A stretch of DNA of 20,202 nt from a virus. Shown here piece after piece: positions 2,623-12,293 of the stretch (its first letter is position 1; every line of letters begins with the position of its first letter). The notes below the pieces were generated by a model. The model had not been told where the DNA came from and did no database searches. It worked only from the letters and a program-made list of their open reading frames with translations. The stretch lies in IMG/VR virus record IMGVR_UViG_3300047564_001160, positions 1 through 20,202 of that record; one strand, given 5' to 3'. The position numbers and the translations under genes were made by a program.

Positions 2623-2921
2623 GTAACAACGTGCTGTTGAGGCGCACCATCAAGGCCTGTAACCTCTGTCCTAGCCAGCTTAGGAATATGGTACTCAGAG
2701 AGCTTCTGGATAATGTCCAATGCCTTATGAGGATCTTTGTCAGCTACCTCATTGAGCCATCTATCCATGTTAGGAGCATTGCGCTCTAGTAGATTAGCAA
2801 TAGCCTCTCGGACAATAGCCGTTGACTTGTTCGGCACTCCTTTTGGCCTACCCTTACCCATGTTAGTAAGGTTAGCTACTCCTCCACTTGCCTCTACTTT
2901 ACTGGTTTCGTTTGTTTCCAT
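2610..2921 (-). CDS. terS: Putative terminase small subunit
   Basis: The small terminase recognises the packaging site and hands DNA to the large subunit. This 103-aa protein lies directly upstream of terL and overlaps it by 13 nt. It contains the GRPKGVPNKST motif (about 24-34) seen at the N-terminus of many phage small-terminase-like and GRPKG-type DNA-binding proteins, followed by a helical segment with an IQKLSEY helix. The assignment rests mainly on position plus this motif; sequence alone is not decisive. AAGGA lies about 10 nt before the ATG. Confidence 0.7.
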   Translation of the reverse strand: METNETSKVEASGGVANLTNMGKGRPKGVPNKSTAIVREAIANLLERNAPNMDRWLNEVADKDPHKALDIIQKLSEYHIPKLARTEVTGLDGAPQQHVVTWQK

Positions 2922-2957
2922 TTTTGCATTATCCTTTGGATGTCATGCTTACTTACT

Positions 2958-3674
2958 TTAGTTTCCTAAAAGCATTTTTAATAGCTCATCAGAACTCATT
3001 TTATCTGGCACTGGTTTACGTCCTGCGTGTGCTGGATCATATGACTTTACGTCAATAACGTGCATTGGCAGTTCAGTTTTGCCTTTTTGCAATGCTAAGT
3101 CAGTTCTATGATTTCCGTCATAAATAACATATTCGCCAGTCTCCAGCCGCAAAGCTAATGGCTTATCTCCATAACCAGCAACCAAATCACCCGGGCCTTT
3201 CCCAGCATTAAATTTTTCCCAATTCCTTGCACTTTGAAAACTTACGGCTTTAGATAATGGGACAGTTTCAACTCTGCCATATTGTTTCATTTGTTCAACT
3301 GTTGGAACAGATGGCATAGTTAAACTTTGTGGGCTTGGAATCCCTGTTTTACCAACATCTTTAATATTCATGTCTACCGGCAAACCTTTGGCTGCTTTAG
3401 CCATTCCAAGCAAACCAATTGTTTTTGCGGCTCCAGCAGGGTTCAATGCGCTAGACACAAGCTCAGTTGTTTCCCCCAATAAACCTTTTTGAGGAGGCGG
3501 CAACAAACCTTTAAACGTAAGGTAATCAGTAGACCCAAATACTTGTTCCGGCCTTAGCATTCCAGTGGCAGTAAATGGCAATGCAGCTAGATCAACAAAA
3601 CCAGTAGCTAACTGCGGAACACCCCTAGCAGTTGCTAAACCTAGCTTCCTTAGCGTTTCTTCAAGAGTTGCCAT
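2958..3674 (-). CDS. Virion-associated-like protein with ParB/sulfiredoxin-like C-terminus
   Basis: A 238-aa protein of unknown role. The first ~110 residues are hydrophobic, Gly/Pro-rich and low in charge (GVPQLATGFVDLAALPFTAT), resembling N-termini of phage ejection or large polyvalent proteins. The C-terminal half carries an ETGEYVIYDGNHRTDLALQ motif followed by a strand (PMHVIDV), which resembles the ParB/sulfiredoxin-type nucleotide-binding fold, where a GxHR-like box is central. The start at 3674 has GAGGTG 4 nt upstream and overlaps the glycosyltransferase gene by 14 nt. The gene is richer in A+T than terL. Function is inferred only. Confidence 0.6.
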   Translation of the reverse strand: MATLEETLRKLGLATARGVPQLATGFVDLAALPFTATGMLRPEQVFGSTDYLTFKGLLPPPQKGLLGETTELVSSALNPAGAAKTIGLLGMAKAAKGLPVDMNIKDVGKTGIPSPQSLTMPSVPTVEQMKQYGRVETVPLSKAVSFQSARNWEKFNAGKGPGDLVAGYGDKPLALRLETGEYVIYDGNHRTDLALQKGKTELPMHVIDVKSYDPAHAGRKPVPDKMSSDELLKMLLGN

Positions 3675-11504: not shown

Positions 11505-11727
11505 CATCAGCCTCCACCTCTATACCGTCATTCCATGCGTTAGCGATGTCAAGATAATGCTTATCAACCCACCTTCCAATTATGCGGAACTGCTCAAGCG
11601 TTAAATACACAAAAATTGGCTCACCAATAATTTCATCGTACTGCTCAATACAAATCTTTCCAGAATCGGTCACATCAACATTAACTGATGCCACACCTTT
11701 TATGACTAAATTCATAGCTTTTTCCAT
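11488..11727 (-). CDS. Unknown small protein ahead of the replication initiator (79 aa)
   Basis: The product contains MNLVIKGVASVNVDVT, then CIEQYDEIIGEPIFVYLTLEQF and an acidic tail (EVEADDDSEA). Not recognised; beta-rich first half. The frame extends to 11757, but the ATG at 11727 directly follows the T tract of a terminator hairpin and has AGGG 8 nt upstream inside that hairpin; ATG 11715 is an alternative. The last 17 nt overlap the initiator gene. Expression is probably controlled by the structured leader RNA upstream. Confidence 0.55.
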   Translation of the reverse strand: MEKAMNLVIKGVASVNVDVTDSGKICIEQYDEIIGEPIFVYLTLEQFRIIGRWVDKHYLDIANAWNDGIEVEADDDSEA

Positions 11728-11751
11728 AAAAAAAGCCCTAGGAGAGACTCT
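11728..11751 (-). terminator. Terminator 3' half: stem arm plus seven-T tract
   Basis: The arm 11751-11733 pairs with 11808-11790 over 19 positions (one A-C mismatch, one G-U pair) and is followed by seven T residues (11734-11728) on the minus strand. The hairpin also buries the AGGG that serves the downstream ATG at 11727. Confidence 0.7.
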
Positions 11752-11832
11752 CACCAATTAAGGTGTTGGCAGACTGGCGGGTAACCAGCAGAGTCCCTTC
11801 TAGGGCTTACCCATAAACGCGCTGCCAAGCAC
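11728..11832 (-). ncRNA. Structured small RNA or attenuator leader (about 105 nt)
   Basis: Lies between a promoter (11839-11867) and the gene at 11488-11727. Fold one: a 19-position outer stem (11808-11790 with 11751-11733) closes two hairpins, CTGG/CCAG (11788-11774) and CACC/GGTG (11765-11752), and ends in seven Us. Fold two, excluding the first: TTGGCAG (11828-11822) pairs with CTGCCAA (11772-11766), and GGGTAA (11812-11807) with TTACCC (11784-11779). Two exclusive folds around a terminator are the mark of attenuators or riboswitch-like leaders; a free small RNA is equally possible. No family is recognised. Confidence 0.6.
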
Positions 11833-11838
11833 GTGATA

Positions 11839-11867
11839 ACTATACTTTAACTCCCCTAAGCTGACAA
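11839..11867 (-). promoter_or_regulatory. Strong sigma70-like promoter for the structured RNA
   Basis: On the minus strand TTGTCA (11867-11862), a 17-nt spacer and TATAGT (11844-11839) match the consensus at 5/6 and 5/6. Transcription would start near 11832, immediately ahead of the folded RNA. It overlaps the end of the zinc-ribbon frame at 11840-12001. Confidence 0.65.
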
Positions 11868-12001
11868 GTCCTGCAAACATTAGCATTTTTAAACTGAATA
11901 CTACTTCTAGAGCGTCTGCAACCGGGACATACTTTCAACCCGTAAAAATTAGTACTTTTCGGCAAGTCTGCTTGTACAGGTGTAGAAGGATCTGGTTTCA
12001 A
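11840..12001 (-). CDS. Possible zinc-ribbon protein, non-ATG start or frameshift product (53 aa)
   Basis: An open frame with VCPGCRRSRSS...NVCRTCQLRG, i.e. C-x2-C-x15-C-x2-C, a convincing small zinc ribbon, ending at TAG 11840. There is no ATG; a TTG at 12001 (product beginning MKPDPSTPVQADLPK) is used here, without a clear ribosome site. The frame stays open upstream to about 12085, in +1 relation to the overlapping gene 11949-12293, so it could instead be reached by a frameshift from that gene, or an assembly indel may separate them. Translation start is uncertain; the Cys pattern is the main support. Confidence 0.45.
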   Translation of the reverse strand: MKPDPSTPVQADLPKSTNFYGLKVCPGCRRSRSSIQFKNANVCRTCQLRGVKV

Positions 12002-12293
12002 TTGTTTGATTTCTAGGCGATAACTTAGGTAAAAACGTTGATAACGGCTTAAATTTTGGTTGGTACTTAGGAGGAACTACCTGCATTACCGTAGCCTCTT
12101 TAGCTGGCTGTCCAACAGGGAAGTATACATTACCTATAAGCCGAAGTTTCTGGTAATTAACTAAATCCTGCAATGCTGCTCTTAATTCGTAATCTCGCTC
12201 GTACTTAAACATTCCGAAGTTCATTAGTAGAGCATCAGCAGTCATCCCGCCATGTTTATGGAACACTTCTAGGATTTTCTCTCTACGAGTCAT
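11949..12293 (-). CDS. Winged-helix-like small protein (114 aa)
   Basis: The first 60 residues (MTRREKILEVFHKHGGMTAD...YERDYELRAALQDLVNYQKLRLIGNVYF) have the helix-turn-helix plus wing pattern of small phage DNA-binding proteins. The rest is a Pro/Lys-rich extension (VVPPKYQPKFKPLSTF) ending RSFYTCTSRLAEKY. A regulatory role is inferred. The ATG overlaps the preceding stop (ATGA). The last ~50 codons overlap an alternative frame that encodes a zinc ribbon. Confidence 0.6.
   Translation of the reverse strand: MTRREKILEVFHKHGGMTADALLMNFGMFKYERDYELRAALQDLVNYQKLRLIGNVYFPVGQPAKEATVMQVVPPKYQPKFKPLSTFLPKLSPRNQTIETRSFYTCTSRLAEKY

Follow-up and report, generated by a model that had tools for sequence, protein, structure and literature searches.

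The 20,202-nucleotide stretch of viral DNA analysed here (the window; positions 1 to 20,202 of IMG/VR record IMGVR_UViG_3300047564_001160) carries, ahead of its replication genes, a structured RNA of about 105 nt (RNA-1; minus strand, 11728-11834) that, judged from its sequence and homologs, is a real and uncatalogued structured RNA family in phages. Its identification rests on a covariance-model match and on homologs in 63 other IMG/VR contigs. The family combines a terminator with two covarying pseudoknots placed around it; Rfam does not list it, and none of the cultured phage genomes searched contains it. At the sequence level, RNA-1 appears to be a 5' leader that ends in an intrinsic terminator ahead of a gene, as attenuators and riboswitches do. 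We give slightly better than even chances to the reading that it is a cis-acting transcription attenuator of the replication operon, in which pre-formed pseudoknots oppose the terminator.

Family status and distribution

The preliminary description of this DNA had recognized no known family, and a search of the window against Rfam 15 agreed, with zero matches at the gathering cut-off; a permissive search of the region returned only mir-541 (E 2.3) and Histone3 (E 0.7), far under the cut-off. The int-alpA RNA model (RF02996) did not match RNA-1, its matches being to an alternative leader in related loci. Blastn against 50,697 phage records (INPHARED) gave zero matches to RNA-1, and a GTDB pattern scan gave one chance match, in a Kapaibacterium MAG, where the structure is absent. 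The pattern match L008 was rejected as a member, as due to chance. The 63 contigs were found by pattern scans of IMG/VR, which gave RNA-1 in 47 of them, and by a recruitment independent of the RNA, in which loci were collected through their DnaB-like helicase and then searched with the covariance model. RNA-1 was complete in 35 of the 80 loci so recruited and truncated in one, and this route added 16 contigs with divergent stems. The model match in the window spans 11729-11835 with E 3e-26, the window sequence itself being among those used to build the models; where the model also matches the opposite strand at this place, it is reading the mirror image of the long stem. RNA-1 is missing from the cultured phages whose terminases come closest (Methylophilales phage Venkman, 65%; ctXG6705, 65%; HTVC010P; HTVC106P). 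Since the terminase shares 65% identity with its counterpart in Venkman, a freshwater betaproteobacterium is a plausible, if unproven, host of the window phage.

Conserved structure and covariation

The folded RNA of about 105 nt that had been proposed is indeed unusually stable (minimum free energy -46.2 kcal/mol, z = -4.45; 0 of 200 shuffles as stable), and aligning related phages for compensating changes, the check suggested at the time, showed that the terminator stem and both alternative pairings covary. The alignment (A2) holds 28 distinct sequences and a six-helix structure of 43 pairs, with covariation support for the hairpins P1, P4 and P5, the terminator stem P3 and the pseudoknots PK1 and PK2. 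Double (compensatory) changes were found in 20 of the 43 pairs and 98.8% of cells are paired; none of 500 shuffles reached this paired fraction or double-change count, and slid controls pair at 37-48%. Among the hairpins, all on the minus strand, P1 (11817-11834; loop TTGGCA at 11828-11823) shows compensatory change in four of six pairs, P4 (CTGG...CCAG, 11774-11788) double changes in two of four, and P5 (CACC...GGTG, 11752-11765), the length of which varies, in three of four.

The two additional pairings of the preliminary description, a 7-bp TTGGCAG/CTGCCAA helix (PK1) and a 6-bp GGGTAA/TTACCC helix (PK2), are both present and kept by compensatory changes. PK1 joins the minus-strand segments 11822-11828 and 11772-11766, with double changes in three of six counted pairs. 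The PK2 5' strand (TGGGTA, minus strand, 11808-11813; 11813-11809 in the counted structure) pairs with ACCCG in the P4 loop (minus strand, 11778-11782) and shows double changes in four of five pairs. In A2, 100% of PK1 cells and 95.7% of PK2 cells are paired, with double changes in seven of the 11 pairs taken together. Over 45 distinct sequences, the complementarity of each exceeded all 1000 partner permutations, so that both 3' strands are supported by covariation and by permutation test.

The terminator had been described with a 19-position stem and seven T, and both details were recovered: on the minus strand, 11808-11790 (AAGCCCTAGAAGGGACTCT) pairs with 11751-11733 (AGAGTCTCTCCTAGGGCTT), with one A.C mismatch (bases 11799 and 11742) and one G.U, and seven T follow at 11734-11728, where all complete homologs have at least five. 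The mismatch is itself conserved, P3 position 38.102 being unpaired in every member (A.C, once C.C). The remaining 18 pairs are paired in 100% of A2 cells, with double changes in four. A first alignment (A1) was recruited mostly through exact matches to the P3 strands, and its P3 invariance is therefore partly by construction; that P3 itself covaries was seen in divergent members recruited by protein. A small hairpin in P3a (CCC-UAGAA-GGG) was discarded as a conserved element because it is lost in variants.

Promoter and downstream genes

A sigma70-type promoter (TTGTCA-17-TATAGT) lies on the minus strand at 11867-11839, as first described, and ties for the top score among 11 promoter-like sites found over 8 kb; 15.5 such sites were expected, and the sequence scan alone is thus not above chance. 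Conservation is more telling: the promoter-like pair is kept in all 54 distinct homologous upstream regions, with the -10 box near P1 (usually 4-5 nt away), and in 50 of the 54 at least nine of 12 promoter positions are matched, compared with 0.85% of control positions. The -35 box occupies 11862-11867 and the -10 box 11839-11844, the latter overlapping the stop codon (TAG) of an upstream zinc-ribbon ORF. From the position of the -10 box, we infer that transcription likely starts at or just inside P1.

The translation signals had been misplaced. The ATG at 11727, taken before as the start codon directly following the T tract, does touch the tract and is not conserved, many homologs carrying TTTTTTTATTGG in its place; the conserved start codon is ATG 11715, after GGAAAAAGCT. 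Likewise, the ribosome site is not inside the terminator stem: a Shine-Dalgarno-like GGAAAA (minus strand, 11725-11720) sits between T tract and start codon, where GGAAAAAGCTATG or GGAGAAAGCTATG is conserved. Of 55 distinct contexts, 54 place the ATG 12-16 nt past the end of six T, the exception being an alternative ATG call. The first downstream gene (75 aa, MNLVIKGVASVNV..., minus strand, 11715-11488) begins at this conserved start and had zero Pfam or PHROG matches. Profile matches confirmed the location ahead of replication genes, namely an O-like replication initiation protein (minus strand, 11507-10887; phrog_26426 1.9e-32, phrog_678 5e-18) and a DnaB-like helicase (minus strand, 10347-9397; PF03796 4.8e-16).

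Across homologs, the genes following RNA-1 belong to unrelated families, which include DUF1376-like MHYYQFHIGDY proteins, 65-76 aa proteins, O-like initiators and HNH-like proteins (names given from sequence resemblance and tested for some only). RNA-1 ends right at the module boundary, exactly where the downstream gene family changes, and the constancy of the 12-16 nt spacing in spite of this exchange favours the attenuator. The gap from terminator to gene is too short to hold another promoter, and transcription of the operon must therefore pass through the RNA-1 terminator. The product of the first gene is unlikely to be an autoregulator, given that several unrelated families occupy that position.

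Expected competition between folds and a proposed attenuator model

The proposal that the second pairings break the terminator stem stands in part: both sets of pairings covary, and their strict exclusivity is an expectation from geometry. The overlap of PK1 and PK2 with the terminator stem amounts to two bases at most (AA, 11808-11807); exclusivity would therefore come from geometry and topology rather than from shared sequence. Both cross P3, and their geometry should set them in competition with its lower half. No linker separates the end of PK2 from the start of P3, and the PK2 partner lies in the P4 loop, at the opposite end of the 19-position stem; PK2 and the lower half of P3 should therefore be incompatible. 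The P3 5' strand runs inside a ring closed by PK1, and a helix of more than one turn between this ring and a strand held by the polymerase should require the ring to open. The conserved mismatch is placed nine pairs from the P3 apex, just short of one turn. In nested-fold predictions on growing transcripts, the PK1 pairing is optimal at 76-90 nt and the terminator wins from about 94 nt. With computed helix energies of -29 kcal/mol for P3, -9 for PK1 and -8 for PK2, P3 outweighs either pseudoknot, and unaided RNA, without help or kinetics, should thus end mostly terminated.

As an attenuator, RNA-1 would work through the order in which its helices are made. P1, PK1, P4, PK2 and P5 could all form before the 3' half of P3 is transcribed. 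If the pseudoknots held, only the upper half of P3 would form, a helix of 9 bp that stops at the conserved mismatch and falls short of a full turn, and the polymerase would read through into the replication genes; if they opened, the lower half (AAGCCCTAG/CTAGGGCTT) would zip and the transcript would end. The balance could be shifted by a candidate signal such as a metabolite, a host or phage protein, or elongation speed.

This plan has relatives among known leaders. In the fluoride riboswitch, a cotranscriptional pseudoknot is broken by the terminator unless stabilized (PMC11077080). RNA-1 resembles the fluoride/crcB and ZTP riboswitches in that a pseudoknot can precede a terminator that would break it and in that the leader adjoins a gene, and differs from them in its fold, in lacking an Rfam match, in having the 5' strand of the terminator between the pseudoknot strands, and in being found only in phages, before replication genes. 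The lambda pR'-tR' leader (6S RNA) likewise consists of a strong promoter, a short RNA and a terminator followed by an operon, and its control needs protein Q bound to DNA. RNA-1 shares this promoter-short RNA-terminator-operon plan and precedes replication genes; the lambda leader is not known to have covarying pseudoknots.

Another leader in the same slot

Thirteen of the loci recruited through DnaB have, in place of RNA-1, a second conserved RNA that is int-alpA-like (L063 at 2788-2880, L082, L085, L086, L090, L094, L107, L109, L110, L111, L116, L117 and L124), and these loci share the upstream ORF, the promoter position and the downstream genes with RNA-1 loci. The one leader tested permissively, that of L063, matched int-alpA with 27.7 bits (E 4e-4), under the cut-off of 35.8. 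In seven more loci (L060, L061, L064, L068, L069, L070 and L074, near 2911-3040), a P1-like hairpin with a TTGGCG loop (CTTGGCGG) is fused ahead of an int-alpA element; four of these seven chimeric leaders were scanned, and all exceeded the int-alpA cut-off (43.7-43.9 bits).

The int-alpA RNA (RF02996) is thus comparable with RNA-1 in slot, promoter position and downstream genes in related phages, and is also pseudoknotted, whereas its sequence and fold are unrelated and it is without a T tract in these phages. Two copies downstream are each able to pair with its loop, and the second abuts or overlaps the Shine-Dalgarno sequence; both complementarities exceeded 2000 permutations, although for one cultured-phage sequence the first copy escaped the automatic split. 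The second partner beside the Shine-Dalgarno sequence suggests that this leader is a translational switch. Matches were also found in five cultured phages, in four of them roughly 75-100 nt before an annotated start codon (L135, L137, L138 and L139, near 2501-2600, from Edwardsiella, Vibrio, Acinetobacter and Salmonella phages), and in Ab105-2phi the int-alpA-like RNA lies ahead of a Rha-family regulator. In these phages, int-alpA looks cis-acting. The exchange of RNA-1 and the int-alpA-like leader at one slot suggests the same job for both, done by RNA-1 through termination, and offers a functional clue for int-alpA, which Rfam lists as an sRNA.

A sister family after the replication genes

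Two weak model matches (L115, E 4e-5; L119, E 0.04) served as search seeds for a sister family, RNA-1b, of which 41 stretches were found (L115:6245-6348, the same as L005; L119:5005-5105; L140-L175). Its layout comprises a promoter, P1, a long stem with a mismatch at the RNA-1 place after TAG, and a T tract. The PK1 of RNA-1b is a covarying long-range helix: almost every one of 19 distinct sequences has it at 10 bp, and its sequence takes 14 different forms (mean complementarity 9.8, against 4.6 when permuted). By inspection it is without PK2, which is therefore not essential to the plan. RNA-1b sits after the replication genes and before later genes, and the two RNAs occur together in one phage, under separate promoters, for example in L005/L115, L029, L035, L036, L026 and L104; the window carries RNA-1, not RNA-1b.

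A wider proposal, which we regard as doubtful, is that RNA-1 and RNA-1b represent a leader class in which an early pseudoknot would topologically block the terminator, because the 3' strand of the terminator, still tethered to the polymerase, would have no way of wrapping around a closed loop of RNA. Two such switches would control the replication operon and the later region without an N- or Q-type protein; if this were true, phage replication would be under a protein-free switch.

RNA-1b is followed usually by a non-coding stretch or, directly, by an HNH/NUMOD-like gene. In two of ten sources scanned, the non-coding stretch matched the Rfam family Betaproteobacteria-1, right behind RNA-1b (L162:2242-2357; L142:1785-1901, minus strand). 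Elsewhere (L161, L144 and L147 are examples) it is another stretch of about 250 nt without convincing genes and unmatched in Rfam. The HNH/NUMOD-like genes begin at the RNA-1b T tract (TTTTTTTATGG) in L026, L082, L104, L119, L148 and L160, as if inserted exactly behind the terminator.

Alternative explanations

The preliminary description had offered an attenuator or a phage small RNA. The former is favoured by position, fixed start-codon spacing and leader replacement; the latter, less favoured and in our estimate possible yet unlikely, would make RNA-1 a free RNA acting in trans, with the terminator as its 3' end and the pseudoknots stabilizing it or binding. An own promoter, discrete size, strong terminator and near-invariant stem sequence would suit such an RNA, as would the position of RNA-1b, which usually precedes a non-coding stretch rather than a gene, and the same covariation could come from a stable small RNA. 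However, RNA-1 always lies directly before the replication operon at fixed spacing, another leader replaces it at the same site, and an operon behind an unregulated strong terminator would be cut off; within the window, 10-mer complementarity to the remaining sequence (3 versus 3.8 expected) points to no target either.

RNA-1 might also be a put-like antiterminator, whose nascent RNA would bind RNA polymerase so that its own and later terminators are ignored, RNA-1 serving the early operon and RNA-1b the later one. The two related RNAs per phage, each with its own promoter, recall putL and putR of HK022 (PMC9378689), likewise promoter-proximal phage leaders that can occur as two related copies, and a paired mismatch in the stem is conserved. 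Put RNA, however, is about 70 nt, consists of two stem-loops, binds the zinc-binding domain of the RNAP beta' subunit and is without a terminator (PMC9378689), whereas RNA-1 is built from six helices, of which two form pseudoknots, and includes its own terminator, and the window holds RNA-1 alone; we consider this reading improbable. Of the likeness to put-type or riboswitch leaders noted earlier, the riboswitch-type plan of leader plus terminator was upheld at the sequence level, whereas put size, the two stem-loops and the missing terminator were not recovered. It is very improbable that the invariant sequence is a DNA element (a binding site of the replication initiator or a recombination site at the module boundary) with an incidental RNA fold, as P3, an inverted repeat beside replication genes at whose end downstream gene families switch, might suggest, given compensatory changes in six helices including two pseudoknots that have no DNA-level explanation, the strand fixed by promoter and T tract, and no iterons (tandem repeats within 2.5 kb amount to a simple TC run and one two-copy 11-mer).

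Upstream open reading frames

The zinc-ribbon ORF (CPGC...CRTC; minus strand, 11840-12001; start codon uncertain) ends inside the -10 box and was found upstream of RNA-1 in at least 33 of 55 contexts, a lower bound because the regular expression used missed some contexts with two stop codons following. A 114-aa ORF (window 11949-12293) overlaps it in a different frame, as in L063, and the pair may be either overlapping genes or a frameshift product.
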